Source: Armatimonadota bacterium (GTDB taxonomy: Bacteria; Armatimonadota; Hebobacteria; CAIYQO01). From it: a stretch of DNA of 32,228 nucleotides. The stretch covers positions 1 to 32,228 of the forward strand of contig JAKPKV010000139.1 of the NCBI GenBank assembly GCA_029553475.1. Direction: 5' to 3'. Below the pieces are notes generated by a model that ran no database searches, had not been told where the DNA came from, and worked only from the letters and a program-made list of their open reading frames with translations. Position numbers and translations under genes: made by a program. Shown in pieces: positions 8,666-30,119 of the stretch. Numbering within the stretch: position 1 is the stretch's first letter; every line of letters starts with the position of its first letter.

Positions 8666-9571
8666 ATGGCGGTTATCCAAGGGTTACGCGCGCAGATCCT
8701 GCCGGCGTCCGTGGTGACGATCGGCATGTTTGACGGGGTGCATCGCGGGCACCAGGCGCTGTTGCACGCGTGCCGGCGCCGTGCCGATGCGCTGCACCTC
8801 CCCGCCGTCGCGCTCACCTATGATCCACATCCCGCGCGCGTCCTGCACCCCGATGTCCCGGTGCGCCTGCTCACGCCGCGCGCGGAAAAGCTGCGGCGCC
8901 TGCAGGCGTCCGCCATTGACGCGGTGGTCGTCGCGCACTTCACCCACGCATTTTCGCTGCTCTCCGCGGACGAGTACCTCACGCTGGTGGTGGATGCGCT
9001 GCACCCGCGCGCGATTGTCGTCGGCTATCGCACCACCTTCGGCCGGGGCCGCGCCGGCACCGCAGACGTGCTGCGCGCATTCGGCGCGCGCGCCGGCATT
9101 GCCGTGGAGATCGTGCCGCCCGTGGAGATACGCGGCATGCCCGTCAGCAGCTCGCTCATCCGCCGGACGCTGGACGAGGGGGAGGTGGAGGCGGCGGCCG
9201 AGCTGTTGGGCTACCGCTACACCATGACGAGCGCGGTGCGGCGCGGGGACGGTCGCGGGCGAACGCTGGGGATGCCCACCGCGAACCTCGAGCCCGAGCC
9301 GGAAAAACTCATCCCGGCGGATGGCGTCTACGCGGTGAGCGCGGCCTTCTGCGCGGGAGCGCGCCGCGGGGTGATGAGCATCGGCGCCCGTCCCACCTTT
9401 GACCGCCCGCGCGCCATCGAGGTGCATCTGCTCGATTATGACGGCGATCTCTACGGGCAGACACTGGAGATCACCTTCCTGCGGCGCCTGCGCGATATCT
9501 GCGCCTTCCCGACCGCCGAGCTGTTGCTGACGCGGATTCGCGAAGATATCATGGCCGCGCGGGCGCTGTAG
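8666..9571 (+). CDS. ribF: Bifunctional riboflavin kinase / FAD synthetase
   Basis: Cytosolic enzyme that phosphorylates riboflavin to FMN and adenylylates FMN to FAD. The N-terminal nucleotidyltransferase half has GMFDGVHRGHQ (20-30) and the SSSLIRR motif (about 161-167). The C-terminal flavokinase half has GRGRTLGMPTAN, IGARPTF and EVHLLDYDGDLYG, the latter supplying the catalytic Glu/Asp region. At 301 aa it is of normal size. It is monocistronic behind its own promoter and is followed by a gene-free repeat island. Confidence 0.95.
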   Translation: MAVIQGLRAQILPASVVTIGMFDGVHRGHQALLHACRRRADALHLPAVALTYDPHPARVLHPDVPVRLLTPRAEKLRRLQASAIDAVVVAHFTHAFSLLSADEYLTLVVDALHPRAIVVGYRTTFGRGRAGTADVLRAFGARAGIAVEIVPPVEIRGMPVSSSLIRRTLDEGEVEAAAELLGYRYTMTSAVRRGDGRGRTLGMPTANLEPEPEKLIPADGVYAVSAAFCAGARRGVMSIGARPTFDRPRAIEVHLLDYDGDLYGQTLEITFLRRLRDICAFPTAELLLTRIREDIMAARAL

Positions 9572-10340
9572 GCGCCGGCCATGATGATGGGCCGCGCCGC
9601 CGAAAAAATGGGCCAAACAGCCCGCCGCGGCGGCAGGGGGCAGGGTCGCGGCCGCGAAGATTTTATTGAGGCGCGCATTCTCGCTCCGCGGGGAGAGGGA
9701 GGGCATAGGCGTCGTCAGCGCGTCAGCGCGCGTTTCGTCCTCGTGCTCGTACTCGTGCTCGAAATCAGATACGGGCGGACAGGATGTCCGCGCTCCGGTG
9801 GGCGCTCCGATGGGCACGACTCATACTCGTACTCGTACTCGTAGTCGTAGTCATAATCGAATACGGGCTTCGATGCTTCACAGCGTATCTGATCGCCAGG
9901 CGCCGGACTGCCCGACGCGCGGTAACTCAGCGCCCCGCTTCAGCATAACTGTAGCGGGATGTACGATGTGTAGCAAACCAGCCCAGGGTAGTCCGCGCCC
10001 TCCGCGGCGCGTGGTGACGCATTGCTGCCTCGTGCCCGATGACGGTGGTGTCGGACACGGGTGCGCATGTTGGTCACACGCGCCGCTACAGAGCACGGTG
10101 CAACGTGACAACCCGCTACACACAACCGTTTAGAGTACGACTACGAGTACGAGCCGTGCCCCGTCGGAGCGCCCATCGGAGCGCGGACATCCTGTCCGCC
10201 CGTAGCGGAGTACGACTACGAGTACGACTACGACTACGAGTATGAAGGGTACGCGAGCCCTCTCGTGACGCCTCTGCGGGGTGTTGGGGAGGGATCGTGA
10301 CGCGCGCAATGCGCGCATCCGCCAACGGGGAGCACCTGTC
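9572..10340. repeat. gene-free composite repeat island with large inverted duplication
   Basis: No credible gene in 769 bp. Two arms, 9736-9860 and 10134-10250, are imperfect reverse complements separated by 273 bp. Each arm has a 42-bp core (9773-9814 and 10160-10201, two mismatches) containing the palindrome CGGACA-GGA-TGTCCG, flanked by hexameric tracts built on TCGTAC/TCGTAG. The spacer contains further related words (GTAGCGGGATGT near 9953 and, inverted, ACCCGCTACA at 10111-10120). This looks like nested REP/MITE-like elements. The ORFs crossing it translate into Ser/Arg-rich repeats and are rejected. Confidence 0.8.
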
Positions 10341-16962: not shown

Positions 16963-17095
16963 GGGCGGGCGAGCGTCCCCGCGAGCCGACTCCGGGGGGA
17001 AGTCTAATCCGTCGTGTGCGCCAGATAGCCTATCTCGCGAACACGACATACCATCATTTCCCCCGGAGTCGGCTCGCGAGGACGCTCGCCCGCCC
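16963..17095. repeat. inverted repeat pair (39-bp arms) of dispersed GGGCGGGCGAGCG element
   Basis: Arms 16963-17001 and 17057-17095 are reverse complements at 37 of 39 positions, separated by 55 bp. The first 26 bases of the left arm recur exactly at 25909-25934, showing that this is a dispersed family. It lies downstream of the anti-sigma gene (minus strand) and could also act as a transcript end. Confidence 0.75.
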
Positions 17096-17123
17096 ATAGA
17101 GCGCGAGGGCGCCCGCCCGGGAA

Positions 17124-24904: not shown

Positions 24905-25906
24905 GTGAATATCGCCGCCGAAACCGCCTGGATGCTGCGGCGCGCGGGGGAGTTGGGCTTCGCCGCGGCCGGCATCGCCGCCGTTGAACCGATGGACCCG
25001 GCGCCGCTGCGCGCCTGGCTCGCGGCGGGCTATCACGCGGAGATGGCCTTTCTCGCGCGCCACCTGCCGCTCCGCGCCGACCTGCGCCGGCTGCTGCCCG
25101 CCGCCCGCTCGGTCATCGTCACCGCGCTCGCGTATCCCGCGCCGAATGTCCACGAGCCGGTGGCTGATTGCCTCGCGCGTTACGCCCGCGGCCGCGATTA
25201 CCATGACGTCGTCGCGGAGATGCTCACCCGGCTCTGGGCGGAGATCCGCGCGCGGCATCCGGACGCCGCGGGCCGCGTCTTCGTGGACGGCGGGCCATTG
25301 CCGGAGCGCGAGCTGGCCCGTCGCGCGGGCATCGGCTGGCCGGGGCGGCATGGCTGCCTGATTCACCCCACCCTCGGCACCCGCTTCGTCCTCGGCGAAA
25401 TCCTCACCACGCTGCCGCTGGCGCCCTCCGAGCCGGCCGCCGGCGCATGCGGCAGTTGCCGTCGCTGCGCGGACGCCTGTCCCACCGGCGCCATCGTCGC
25501 CCCCGGCGTGCTGGATGCCCGCCGCTGCATCTCTTATCTCACTATCGAGCATAAAGGGGGGATTCCCGCCGCATTGCGCCCGCTCATCGGCGGCCGCCTC
25601 TTCGGCTGCGACGCCTGCCAGGATGCCTGCCCGCATAACCGTGGGATGGGGGAGCCTGCGCCCGCCCCCCGCGATGCGCTGCTCGCCCTGCTCGCCCTCA
25701 CGCCGGAGGAGTTTCATCGGCGCTTCCAGGGCACCCCGCTCCGCCGCGCCAAACGCCGCGGCCTGTTGCGCAACGTCTGCGTCGTCCTCGGCAACCTTGG
25801 CGGCCCCGACGCTTTGCCGGCGCTTCGCCGCGCGCTGGACGATGCAGAGCCGCTGGTGCGCGAACATGCGGCGTGGGCCATCGCCCACATCCGGGAACGC
25901 GGGTGA
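24905..25906 (+). CDS. queG: Epoxyqueuosine reductase
   Basis: Cobalamin- and iron-sulfur-dependent enzyme that reduces epoxyqueuosine to queuosine in tRNA, the last step of queuosine synthesis. Visible features: AWLAAGYHAEMAFLARH, VDGGPLPERELARRAGIGW (Asp128 in the active-site region), two [4Fe-4S] sites from CGSCRRCADAC (Cys182, 185, 188, 192) with CDACQDAC (Cys235, 238, 242), and RCISYLTIEHKG (Cys208). A HEAT-like C-terminus (about 270-333) reads LVREHAAWAIAHI. GTG 24905 matches the usual N-terminus; the longer frame contains unrelated cupin-gene sequence. At 333 aa it is slightly short but complete. Confidence 0.93.
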   Translation: MNIAAETAWMLRRAGELGFAAAGIAAVEPMDPAPLRAWLAAGYHAEMAFLARHLPLRADLRRLLPAARSVIVTALAYPAPNVHEPVADCLARYARGRDYHDVVAEMLTRLWAEIRARHPDAAGRVFVDGGPLPERELARRAGIGWPGRHGCLIHPTLGTRFVLGEILTTLPLAPSEPAAGACGSCRRCADACPTGAIVAPGVLDARRCISYLTIEHKGGIPAALRPLIGGRLFGCDACQDACPHNRGMGEPAPAPRDALLALLALTPEEFHRRFQGTPLRRAKRRGLLRNVCVVLGNLGGPDALPALRRALDDAEPLVREHAAWAIAHIRERG

Positions 25907-25908
25907 AT

Positions 25909-25967
25909 GGGCGGGCGAGCGTCCCCGCGAGCCGCGTTGCCCGCAGGAACGCCCGCGCGCGCGGGCG
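25909..25967. repeat. dispersed GGGCGGGCGAGCG element plus GC palindrome between convergent genes
   Basis: 25909-25934 is identical to 16963-16988. It is followed by an 18-bp palindrome (25950-25967) ending 3 bp from the stop of the minus-strand gene. The repeat could terminate transcription from both sides; there is no T-run. Confidence 0.65.
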
Positions 25968-25969
25968 CT

Positions 25970-26623
25970 TCAGGCCGACTTCGCCGCAATCCGCTGCTTC
26001 AGCTCCTTATCCAGGCTGCGCTGCATCGCCTCGATGGCGAGCACGCTCTCGTAAGGATAATCCAGCTCCTTGCAGGCCGCCTGCAAACTCTCAAATCCCG
26101 CGCGCGTGGACTGCGACTCCAGCCATTCGATGGTGTCGGCGGGCTTGCGCATCTCGCCGGCCGCCATCGGCTTGGGCTCGGGGATGAAGAGCGGGGCGCT
26201 CGGACGCTCGCCGCGCGGTTTTCGGCCTTTGCGTTCGCGCGGGGCATCCACCACACGGCCTTCGTCCAGCTCTTGGTCCAGCTCGGTGCCGAAGCCGGCT
26301 GCCGCCAGCGCGCGGCCAATGGCCCCGGTCTCCGCCTTTTCCACGTAGTCGAAGAAGTTGGCGGCCGTCTCCGTCTTTGTGCCCTGGCCGAGGAGCCGGC
26401 CATCGCCGTCCCGCACGGTCGCGCGGAAACGCGCGTAGCCATATACCTTGCCGTTGCCCTTCGGGAAGGGCCGGTCGAGCTCCACCGCCACTTCTTCCGT
26501 CTCGATGCTGCCGTTCGGATGGAGGCTGCGGAACCACTTCACGCGGGCCGCGACGGGGAGGTACTCCTTGCCGTTGAGATCAATGGTGAAATCGCCGGGC
26601 TTGAACTCACGCTTCTCACTCAT
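25970..26623 (-). CDS. Predicted ssDNA-annealing/Rad52-like uncharacterised protein
   Basis: 217-aa soluble protein. Residues 1-120 have wording I associate with a bacterial family sometimes linked to single-strand DNA annealing: LNGKEYLPVAARVKWFRSLHP, ETEEVAVELD, VYGYARFRATVRDGDGRLLGQGTKTE, then FFDYVEKAETGAIGRALAAAGFGT (the ETGAIGRAL core is the most characteristic). The second half has a charged Pro-rich linker and a C-terminal helix. ATG 26623 is chosen because AGAGGA lies 6 nt upstream. I could not confirm the family by search, so function is an inference; no recombination genes are adjacent. Confidence 0.6.
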   Translation of the reverse strand: MSEKREFKPGDFTIDLNGKEYLPVAARVKWFRSLHPNGSIETEEVAVELDRPFPKGNGKVYGYARFRATVRDGDGRLLGQGTKTETAANFFDYVEKAETGAIGRALAAAGFGTELDQELDEGRVVDAPRERKGRKPRGERPSAPLFIPEPKPMAAGEMRKPADTIEWLESQSTRAGFESLQAACKELDYPYESVLAIEAMQRSLDKELKQRIAAKSA

Positions 26624-27095: not shown

Positions 27096-27110
27096 ACCGC
27101 CGTCATCGCG

Positions 27111-27139
27111 TTGACGAGGGGGCAAGCCTGCGCTATACT
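27111..27139 (+). promoter_or_regulatory. promoter for the GHMP kinase, leaderless
   Basis: TTGACG (27111-27116), 17 bp, TATACT (27134-27139). Only GCCGCC separates the -10 from ATG 27146, so transcription should start at the start codon. Confidence 0.75.
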
Positions 27140-27145
27140 GCCGCC

Positions 27146-28165
27146 ATGGCACGAGAAATCTTCGCATCGGCGCCCACCCGCATTGACTTCGGCGGTGGCA
27201 CGCTGGACATTCACCCCATTTATCTCTACTTTGACGGCGGCATCACCATCAACGCCGCCATCAATCTGGATTCCCAGGTGTGGCTGACGGGACGCGCGGA
27301 TGACACCATCACCATCCGCTCCATAGATACCGGCCATACGCTGGAGTGCGACGGGGGGGTGGCTGCGCTCCCGCTCACCGGCCCGCTGGCGCTCATCACG
27401 CGCATGCTGCGCTACTATCGGCCCGCCGGCGGCCTCGACGTGGCGACGAAACTGCTCCCGCCGCATGGCTCCGGCCTGGGCGCCTCCTCCGCGCTCATCA
27501 TCACCCTGGCGCATGCGCTGCTGGCGTATCACGGCAAATCCGATGACCCGCAGCGCATCATCCGCATCTGCAATAACCTGGAAGCGCAGTTGATGGGCAT
27601 GCCCGCCGGCCAGCAGGATTATTACCCGCCCACCTATGGGGGCATCAACGCCGTACATTACGACATCGAGGGTGTCCGGGTGGAATCGCTCGATCCCGAC
27701 GGCGCCTTCCTGCCCGTCCTGCAGGAGCACGTGCTGGTCACCTATACCAATATCACGCATCACTCCGGGATGACGAACTGGCAGAAAATTCGCAACTACT
27801 TTGACGGCGTGGAGCGCACGGTGGAGAGTTTTCGACGGATCAAAGCCACCGTCAGCCTGTTCTATGACGCCTTCAAGACCCGCGACATCGCGCGCATCGC
27901 CGAGCTGCTCAACACCGAGTGGGAGAACCGCAAGGGCCTCTCCGACGGCGTGACGAATCCCGACATTGACCGCATGGTCGCCGCCGCGCGCGCGGCCGGC
28001 GCCTGGGCCAGCAAACTGTGCGGTGCCGGCGGCGGCGGCTGCATGATGACCATCGTCCCGCCGGACCGGCGCGCCGCCGTCCTCGCCGCGCTGGAAGCGG
28101 AAGGCGCCAGCGCCCTGGACGTGCGGCTCGTGCGCGACGGCGTGAGCGTCACCGTCAACGCGTAG
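27146..28165 (+). CDS. GHMP kinase, D-glycero-D-manno-heptose 7-phosphate kinase-like
   Basis: Cytosolic sugar kinase of 339 aa. GHMP motifs: ASAPTRIDFGGGTLDIHP (substrate-binding opening), the phosphate-binding PHGSGLGASSA (106-116) and the C-terminal CGAGGGGCMM. The wording resembles HddA-type heptose 7-phosphate kinases and L-fucokinase/galactokinase-like relatives that act in nucleotide-sugar synthesis for LPS or S-layer glycans. Heptose specificity is an inference; no gmhA/gmhB/hddC neighbours are present. It ends 2 bp from the convergent STN-domain gene. Confidence 0.87.
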   Translation: MAREIFASAPTRIDFGGGTLDIHPIYLYFDGGITINAAINLDSQVWLTGRADDTITIRSIDTGHTLECDGGVAALPLTGPLALITRMLRYYRPAGGLDVATKLLPPHGSGLGASSALIITLAHALLAYHGKSDDPQRIIRICNNLEAQLMGMPAGQQDYYPPTYGGINAVHYDIEGVRVESLDPDGAFLPVLQEHVLVTYTNITHHSGMTNWQKIRNYFDGVERTVESFRRIKATVSLFYDAFKTRDIARIAELLNTEWENRKGLSDGVTNPDIDRMVAAARAAGAWASKLCGAGGGGCMMTIVPPDRRAAVLAALEAEGASALDVRLVRDGVSVTVNA

Positions 28166-28167
28166 CC

Positions 28168-28404
28168 TTACGCGGCGCGCTTGATATGATACACCCCGCC
28201 CTCCTCCATCGCCGTGTAATTCGGCGGCAGGAGGAGGGCGAGGGCATCGCGGAAGCCCAGGTCGTCCGCCCGCACCGATATCGTTTCAGGCAGCGGATCC
28301 TCCACCAGAAACGCCCGCCCCGCCTGCGCGAAGAGATCATCCAGCGCCCGCTCCAGCTTCGCGTCCTTCAGGTCGAGGTGAAACAGCATATCGGGATCAG
28401 CCAT
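28168..28404 (-). CDS. Free-standing STN (secretin/TonB N-terminal) domain protein
   Basis: 78-aa protein whose whole length matches an STN domain: FHLDLKDAKLERALDDLFAQ, then an AFLVEDPLPETISV strand pair, and DLGFRDALALLLPPNYTAMEEGGVYHIK. STN domains normally sit at the N-terminus of secretins or TonB-dependent receptors behind a signal peptide; here neither a signal peptide nor a following domain is present. A strong GGAGGGAGGGAG precedes ATG 28404. It converges with the kinase gene. It may be a cytosolic adaptor or a remnant of a larger protein; the clean start and ribosome-binding site favour a working gene. Confidence 0.75.
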   Translation of the reverse strand: MADPDMLFHLDLKDAKLERALDDLFAQAGRAFLVEDPLPETISVRADDLGFRDALALLLPPNYTAMEEGGVYHIKRAA

Positions 28405-28460
28405 ATCTCCCTCCCTCCATCGCCATCATCCCCATCCGCGCCCACCGCGACATCCCAATA

Positions 28461-28496
28461 ATCGTCATCGTCATCGTCATCGTCGTCGTCATCGTA
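28461..28496. repeat. TCATCG/TCGTCG low-complexity tract, copy 2
   Basis: Same type as the tract at 16736-16765, with about ten trinucleotide-like units. It lies in a 293-bp gap between the STN gene and dacB; the rest of that gap shows no gene. A weak plus-strand promoter (TTGATG near 28610 with CACAAT 16 bp later) may serve dacB. Confidence 0.7.
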
Positions 28497-28697
28497 AGCG
28501 ATAGTGCCAATACTCGGTCTTCCCGGCGGAGGAGTTAACGCCGGCACGTTTACCGCATGACGAAGATGAGCAGATTGAAGTAGGCTCCGCGGGTTGGGAC
28601 GGGATTGATGCGTCGCTTCGGGAGGGCACAATCGCTGACGTGAACACGCCGGCGGGACTGCGATGCGCCGTCCGCGCGAAAAGTACTGGAGGGGGAT

Positions 28698-30119
28698 ATG
28701 CGGCAACGTCTCTGCGTGATACTGCTCGCGCTCTGGTCGCTGGCGGCGCTGGCCGCGCCGCCGGAGGGCTTTACTGCCGCCATGGAGCGCCTGCAGGGCG
28801 ACCCCGCGCTCAACGGGGCGAAAATCGGCATCCTGGTCCAGTCGCTGGATGACGGCGCGGTGTGGTACGCCAAAAATGAGGGTCTGCCCCTCATTCCCGC
28901 TTCAACCGCGAAACTCGTCACCGCCGCGCTGGCGTTGGAGTACCTGGCGCCTGACTATCGCTTCACCACCACCCTGGCCGTTGACGGCCCGGTGAACGAC
29001 GGCGTGCTGCACGGCAATCTGTACCTGAAGGGTGGGGGAGACCCCGTCCTCACTCCCGCGACCTTCCGCGCCTGGGCGCAGCAGTTGTACGACGGCGACG
29101 ACAGCGCGAACCGCCCCGCGCTGCGCGAGATTCGCGGCCGCATCGTCATTGACAACGCTTTTTTCCCGAATCCCGACCCGCTGCGCGGTCCCGGCTGGGA
29201 AAAAGCCGACTTGCCCTGGTATTATGCCGCTCCGCCGACCGCGCTCGCCTGCAATCAGAACGCCGTGCGCCTCACCGTGCGCGGCACGGCGCCCGGCGCT
29301 CCCCCCAGCGTCACGTTCGATCCCCCCACCGCGCTGTTCACCGTCGTCAATCAGGCGAAAACGGCGAACGCCGTCCGAAAACCCCTGGAGGTGCTTCCCA
29401 ACGGGACGACCGTGCGCATCATCGGCGGCATCGCCCCGGGGAAAGAGGTGGTGGAGCGCTTGAGCGTTCCCGCGCCCGACCGCTTTGCCGTCGAGCAATT
29501 CACCGCCGCGCTGCGCGACGCCGGCATCACCGTCACCAATGACCCGGCATTGAAAGGGACGGCGGAACCAGCGGTATTGCTCACGCACCACTCGCCCACC
29601 TTGCGCGAGATCATCTACCCGATGCTGAAGGACAGCGACAACCACACGGCCGAGCAGGTGCGCCTGACGCTGCTCGCGCTCTACAGCCTGGAGCCGCCCG
29701 TGGCGGGACGGTATCCGATCATGGTGACGAATTACTGCGAGCTCTCCGACATCGTCACCGGGAACTTTTTCCTGGTGGATGGCTCCGGGCTGTCGCGCCA
29801 GGATCGCATGAGCCCGCGCGGCGCCGTGCGCATCCTCACACATATGGCGCTCTCCGCGCATTTTGCGGTCTGGTACCACAGCCTGCCGGTCGCCGGGCGC
29901 GACGGGACGCTGAAAACGCGCATGGCGGATACGCGCGCCGCCGGCAATGCCCGCGCGAAAACGGGCACCATGACCGGCGTTTCCAGCCTGGCGGGCTATG
30001 TCACCTCGCAGGCGGGTGAGCGGCTGGTCTATGCCGTCATGCTGAATGATTATCGCGGGAGCTCCGCCGCGGCGCGGCGCCTGCAGGACAGCATCGTCGG
30101 GCTGCTCGCGGATCAGTGA
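28698..30119 (+). CDS. dacB: D-alanyl-D-alanine carboxypeptidase/endopeptidase (PBP4, peptidase S13)
   Basis: Exported penicillin-binding protein that trims or cleaves peptidoglycan cross-links. The signal peptide (1 to about 20, LAALAAPPEG) is followed by the three active-site motifs: STAK (Ser69, Lys72), SDN in KDSDNHTAEQV (about 314-316) and KTG in AKTGTMTG (about 417-419). The family insert domain between motifs 1 and 2 is present, with GNLYLKGGGDPVL. GGAGG lies 5 nt before the ATG. At 473 aa it has the usual size. Its last 7 bp overlap the convergent DUF218 gene. Confidence 0.95.
   Translation: MRQRLCVILLALWSLAALAAPPEGFTAAMERLQGDPALNGAKIGILVQSLDDGAVWYAKNEGLPLIPASTAKLVTAALALEYLAPDYRFTTTLAVDGPVNDGVLHGNLYLKGGGDPVLTPATFRAWAQQLYDGDDSANRPALREIRGRIVIDNAFFPNPDPLRGPGWEKADLPWYYAAPPTALACNQNAVRLTVRGTAPGAPPSVTFDPPTALFTVVNQAKTANAVRKPLEVLPNGTTVRIIGGIAPGKEVVERLSVPAPDRFAVEQFTAALRDAGITVTNDPALKGTAEPAVLLTHHSPTLREIIYPMLKDSDNHTAEQVRLTLLALYSLEPPVAGRYPIMVTNYCELSDIVTGNFFLVDGSGLSRQDRMSPRGAVRILTHMALSAHFAVWYHSLPVAGRDGTLKTRMADTRAAGNARAKTGTMTGVSSLAGYVTSQAGERLVYAVMLNDYRGSSAAARRLQDSIVGLLADQ

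Follow-up and report, generated by a model that had tools for sequence, protein, structure and literature searches.

VirB7 of Xanthomonas (XAC2622) and DotD are small proteins whose folded part is a single N0 domain, and the N0 domain of VirB7 binds other domains or itself, according to PMC3093366. Each of them is a lipoprotein that is exported and belongs to a type IV secretion system. The protein described here, STN1, differs from them in having neither a leader nor a lipobox cysteine. It is a 78-aa stand-alone STN/N0 domain protein with a pI of 4.5 and no cysteine at all, encoded on the minus strand at 28168..28404 of the window (the whole stretch of Armatimonadota DNA that was analyzed, 32,228 nucleotides). 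As judged from its sequence, STN1 is probably a real small gene encoding one secretin-type domain without an export signal.

The STN1 open reading frame runs for 78 codons from ATG to stop. The Shine-Dalgarno region GGAGGGAGGGAGAT lies before this ATG, at 28405..28418 on the minus strand. Its duplex of -13.1 kcal/mol compares with -11.4 kcal/mol for the 1st percentile of 2,000 random window stretches, and it ranks second among 20 start sites, which were chosen by hand and include two alternatives of one gene. The codon usage of STN1 is gene-like. In its own frame the coding-potential score was 35.9, as opposed to a 99th percentile of 13.2 for non-coding frames; 78-codon pieces of 16 known genes had a median of 32.5 and a 95th percentile of 46.4. 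A plus-strand ORF overlapping STN1 (28018-28461) was rejected as a real gene, the plus frames scoring 12.8 or less against the score of STN1. A scan of 28000-28900 returned 0 promoters and 0 terminators.

STN1 is convergent with a GHMP kinase gene (27146..28165, plus strand), for which the nearest NCBIfam model was heptose-7-phosphate kinase, with a score under that model's cut-off. On the other side, a dacB-type D-Ala-D-Ala carboxypeptidase (PBP4) gene is divergent from STN1 (28698..30119, plus strand). No phage spike, tail or sigma gene adjoins STN1. Elsewhere in the window, the protein encoded at 25970-26623 on the minus strand matches PHROG 27776 (E 4.1e-16), a phage family of unknown function, and has no Pfam match at E ≤ 1. 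The window also contains copies of a 26- to 29-bp repeat, at 25906-25934, at 16963-16988 on the plus strand and at 17070-17097 on the minus strand. Counting the window's own copies, this repeat has 66 matches in the genome, frequently in inverted pairs with a spacing of about 108 bp that resemble REP doublets, and ORFs across it read 'MGGRAS..RA'.

In the STN1 frame, only seven codons separate the ATG from an upstream stop, too few for a leader. By eye, the other two frames contain no leader-like segment up to dacB, and a leader hidden in another frame was thus rejected. The highest 12-residue Kyte-Doolittle mean is 0.37 for residues 1 to 40 of the open frame and 1.28 for the whole protein. 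A hexamer array (ATCGTC on the plus strand) occupies 28461..28495, 57 to 91 bp upstream of the STN1 start. Being of low complexity and error-prone, and lying in a draft genome of 194 contigs, this array is where a sequencing error could have removed a real upstream leader. Such an annotation or assembly error is nevertheless highly improbable: none of the three upstream frames has a leader-like segment, the Shine-Dalgarno sequence stands directly before the ATG, and there is no space for a tail because only 2 bp separate the STN1 stop from the end of the convergent kinase gene. With those at 9735-9849 and 10160-10239, the hexamer arrays of the window read ATCGTC, ACTCGT and TACGAC. Arrays like the one upstream of STN1 are present at tens of genomic sites, and a query with 27100-28760 gave 50 matches, mostly in the array.

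Pfam STN (PF07660) matched STN1 with an E-value of 0.084 and 13.2 bits, under the curated cut-off of 28.4, and the NCBIfam models gave no match. A profile of 16 leadered STN domains, built without STN1, scored STN1 at 54.5 bits, with 5.5 bits for the best of 1,000 shuffles, and over 440 frames of the window the runner-up after STN1 reached 0.9 bits. Because these 16 domains had been found with STN1 as the query, the tests were repeated with other domains. A profile from 12 domains of other loci, again without STN1, gave 30.0 bits (best of 1,000 shuffles, 4.4). Seven of the 12 are also among the matches of the phylum search with STN1. The five that are absent there gave a profile scoring STN1 at 18.8 bits (best of 1,000 shuffles, 3.6), a value in which circularity is lowered but still present, since the five were found via profile A2, which has STN1 as one of its three rows. 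In the STN profile search suggested by the first-pass annotation, STN1 is below the Pfam cut-off and is matched by the family profiles.

The nearest relative of STN1 (in genome G003) passes the Pfam STN cut-off with 38.7 bits. All 18 rows of alignment A1, which comprises STN1 and the 16 leadered domains among others, match Pfam STN at E ≤ 1, the best at 8.4e-16. The A1 profile matched the PilQ N0 structure 4ar0 over positions 3-74 (E 9.2e-18), and the STN1 sequence alone matched no solved structure. A single-sequence model of STN1 was of low confidence (pLDDT 65.6) and had the order helix-strand-helix-strand-strand. With this low-confidence model, Foldseek returned 0 matches at E ≤ 0.001; VIA-align had trehalose-6-phosphate phosphatase as its best match (Z 4.7, rmsd 3.1 over 72 residues) and no N0 structure among the matches listed. 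Phage, plasmid and viral relatives gave no match to STN1, PADLOC reported none, PHROGs matched only at E 0.13 and worse, and no other domain than STN/N0 was found in the protein. By profile homology, STN1 is assigned to the STN/N0 domain superfamily. Together with the leader-free upstream frames and the strength of the Shine-Dalgarno duplex, this bears out the first-pass description of a 78-aa protein made of one STN domain, with a strong ribosome-binding site and no export signal.

We evaluated the form in which this domain occurs in the phylum. The search with STN1 as the query found a match at E ≤ 1 in 219 of 291 genomes, and the best one outside its own genome, in the G003 genome of the same class, had 41% identity (E 5.6e-7). 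By eye, each of the 16 leadered A1 domains is preceded by a leader or a membrane segment. Twelve of the 14 short-frame loci that were fetched contained a clear domain (>70 bits). A hydrophobic leader, with a 12-residue mean of 2.2 to 2.9, was found ahead of the domain in 11 of these 12; in the twelfth, the residues at that place are undetermined. The short-frame candidates G051 and G229 were rejected, with no STN domain at E ≤ 0.001, and two short-frame matches of the STN1 query (G067 and G282) contain stops. Thus, STN homologues outside the genus are longer, and they are leadered or membrane-bound where the start is readable. One locus (L030, G111:C203) encodes what by eye is a BlaR1-like membrane peptidase with a C-terminal STN domain.

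The nearest relatives of STN1 consist of a leader, the STN domain and a low-complexity tail, and their gene stands directly before a secretin gene. This order, on the same strand, was found in all four mapped loci (G003, G004, G000:C131 and G001:C47), where Pfam Secretin matched with E-values of 1.3e-28 to 4.7e-32. The leadered STN genes follow pilM-N-O-like genes (L101, L102, L103 and L051): PilM is upstream on the same strand in three of the four mapped loci (E 2.6e-50 to 5.2e-55), pilN- and pilO-like genes are upstream on the same strand in the same three (by eye; four that were scanned had no Pfam match), and the contig of the fourth, G001:C47, begins 0.6 kb before the STN frame. Since the leadered STN adjoins the secretin and pilM-N-O-like genes, the usual place of this domain in the phylum is predicted to be in an additional, exported protein of a type IV pilus-type operon. 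The genome of STN1 has such an operon itself (G000:C131), with a leadered STN protein (profile E 1.3e-8; no STN domain by Pfam), a secretin (E 4.7e-30) and PilM (E 7.7e-51). STN1 is therefore an addition to the leadered protein, not a replacement for it.

The same genome contains a second leaderless gene, STN2, for a 92-aa stand-alone STN protein (G000:C162:36270-36545). An orthologue of equal length and 78% identity is found in another species of the genus (G002:C33:7081-7356). For this pair, dN, dS and dN/dS were 0.124, 0.614 and 0.20 by NG86, and 0.125, 0.852 and 0.15 by YN00. STN2 is thus under purifying selection, and its leaderless short form has been kept between two species. One member of the pair passes Pfam STN with 30.1 bits and the other is below the cut-off with 23.9. 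The most hydrophobic 12 residues of STN2 (mean, 1.64) start at residue 23, within the domain. An upstream GTG start is possible in both genes, and the 16 extra residues are not hydrophobic, by eye. In the phylum search with profile A2, which had a match at E ≤ 0.01 in 240 of 291 genomes, the only frames of 130 aa or less among the matches listed were three of this genus.

In both species, a zinc-ribbon/FHA gene directly precedes STN2 on the same strand, with 69 or 71 bp between them (the pair of genes spans 9271-10074 of locus L040 in G000:C162, and 6551-7356 of L056 in G002:C33). The product of this neighbor (FHA, E 3.9e-19; zinc ribbon, E 6.4e-8) is a protein of cytosolic type and is 96% identical between the two genomes. 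It was matched in 12 of 14 genomes of the class, with 13 matches in total, and an STN frame was near the FHA gene in 2 of these 13 loci, some with short flanks, namely those of G000 and G002. Among the loci scanned, STN2 stands behind the FHA gene in this genus alone, so the FHA protein can do without STN2. Leaderless STN proteins in this genus are maintained genes, as shown for the STN2 pair, and the conservation of the STN2-type gene in two species suggests an intracellular use of an envelope domain in this lineage.

Conservation of the short form, one of the checks proposed in the first-pass annotation, was found for STN2 and not for STN1 in the genomes searched. G001 and G002 contained no STN1 orthologue by profile or DNA; G002 is 78% complete, with a dacB that is cut off by the end of its contig, and G001 had no dacB or GHMP-kinase match at the limits used. 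No STN gene was found beside the GHMP kinase at ten other loci of the class, with up to 1.5 kb covered on each side (E 2.7 or worse). In a tree of 36 domains, STN1 lies on a long branch near the leadered domains of the class (support, 46-60), and STN2 lies near secretin N0 domains (support, 40). The two are not joined, and the groupings in question have supports between 37 and 60. Thus, the tree fits one origin of leaderless STN or two, and the conservation of STN2 lends STN1 only indirect support.

The long branch and the missing orthologue, together with the greater length of the relatives read outside the genus and the loss in STN1 of the family's VQG motif, agree with the main rival explanation: that the domain part of a leadered STN protein was recently duplicated to give STN1, a copy that landed without leader and tail, is open by chance and has no function. 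We regard this as possible but doubtful, given the gene-like codon usage and strong Shine-Dalgarno sequence of STN1 and the purifying selection on a second leaderless gene. Moreover, STN1 can be aligned with the 17 other rows of A1 along the full domain, with identities of only 26-37%, and its frame is open, so that it has diverged for long without gaining a stop. The first-pass annotation had offered a domain working in the cytosol or a remnant of a secretin-like protein, and took uniformly longer homologues, with a frameshift or truncation visible at the locus, as counting against its observation. Homologues outside the genus are indeed longer, and STN1 displays no frameshift and no remnant of a leader or tail. 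Since no remnant is visible at STN1 and STN2 is kept in two species, a working leaderless protein is favored, with no proof for STN1 itself.

Judged by its missing leader alone, STN1 is most likely in the cytosol. N0-fold spike proteins have no leader and are assembled in the cytosol, and it is conceivable that STN1, and STN2 with it, likewise exit through a leader-independent route or with a partner and act in the envelope. The N0-fold proteins listed in PMC3093366 are of outer-membrane transport or of phage and type VI spikes, in line with such a route. We consider it unlikely, however: STN1 has no leader, cysteine or hydrophobic stretch, no spike or tail gene is beside it, and the neighbor of STN2 encodes a zinc-ribbon/FHA protein. 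The reading we prefer, to which we give about an even chance, is that STN1 is a single real gene whose product is a small N0 domain residing in the cytosol and docking on another protein. The domain would have been copied from a leadered envelope protein, minus leader and tail, and would now fold in the cytosol. Other N0 domains, like that of VirB7, bind other domains or each other, and docking or competing is thus the natural guess for its role. By analogy with them, the cytosolic N0 domain may dock on another protein, presumably serving as adaptor or competitor rather than as an enzyme; in the case of STN2, the zinc-ribbon/FHA protein would be the most natural candidate to bind. More tentatively, and with some doubt on our part, the secretin-type N0 domain may have been relocated to the cytosol in this genus, perhaps on two independent occasions, to give free docking modules, one of them coupled to the zinc-ribbon/FHA protein.

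In the literature searched, where most subscription journals are not represented, no stand-alone STN/N0 protein of the cytosol was found to be described. Compared with the PilQ and GspD secretins, whose N0 (STN) domain it resembles in that the profile of the 18 A1 rows, STN1 included, spans the whole N0 domain of PilQ (4ar0), STN1 has no secretin barrel or leader, and the entire protein is 78 aa long. A weak likeness also exists to the signaling domains of the FecR C terminus and TonB transducers, as 3 of the 18 A1 members match FecR_C (best E, 0.00048); STN1, however, has no receptor, FecR part, plug or barrel, and no sigma gene adjoins it. The leadered STN-tail proteins of the phylum are its nearest sequence relatives, and their leader, tail and secretin neighbor are all three missing at STN1. 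If the leaderless STN beside an FHA protein holds, the domain is usable for another task inside the cell, and if the coupling to the zinc-ribbon/FHA protein is true, a domain of envelope assembly would have joined phospho-dependent signaling.
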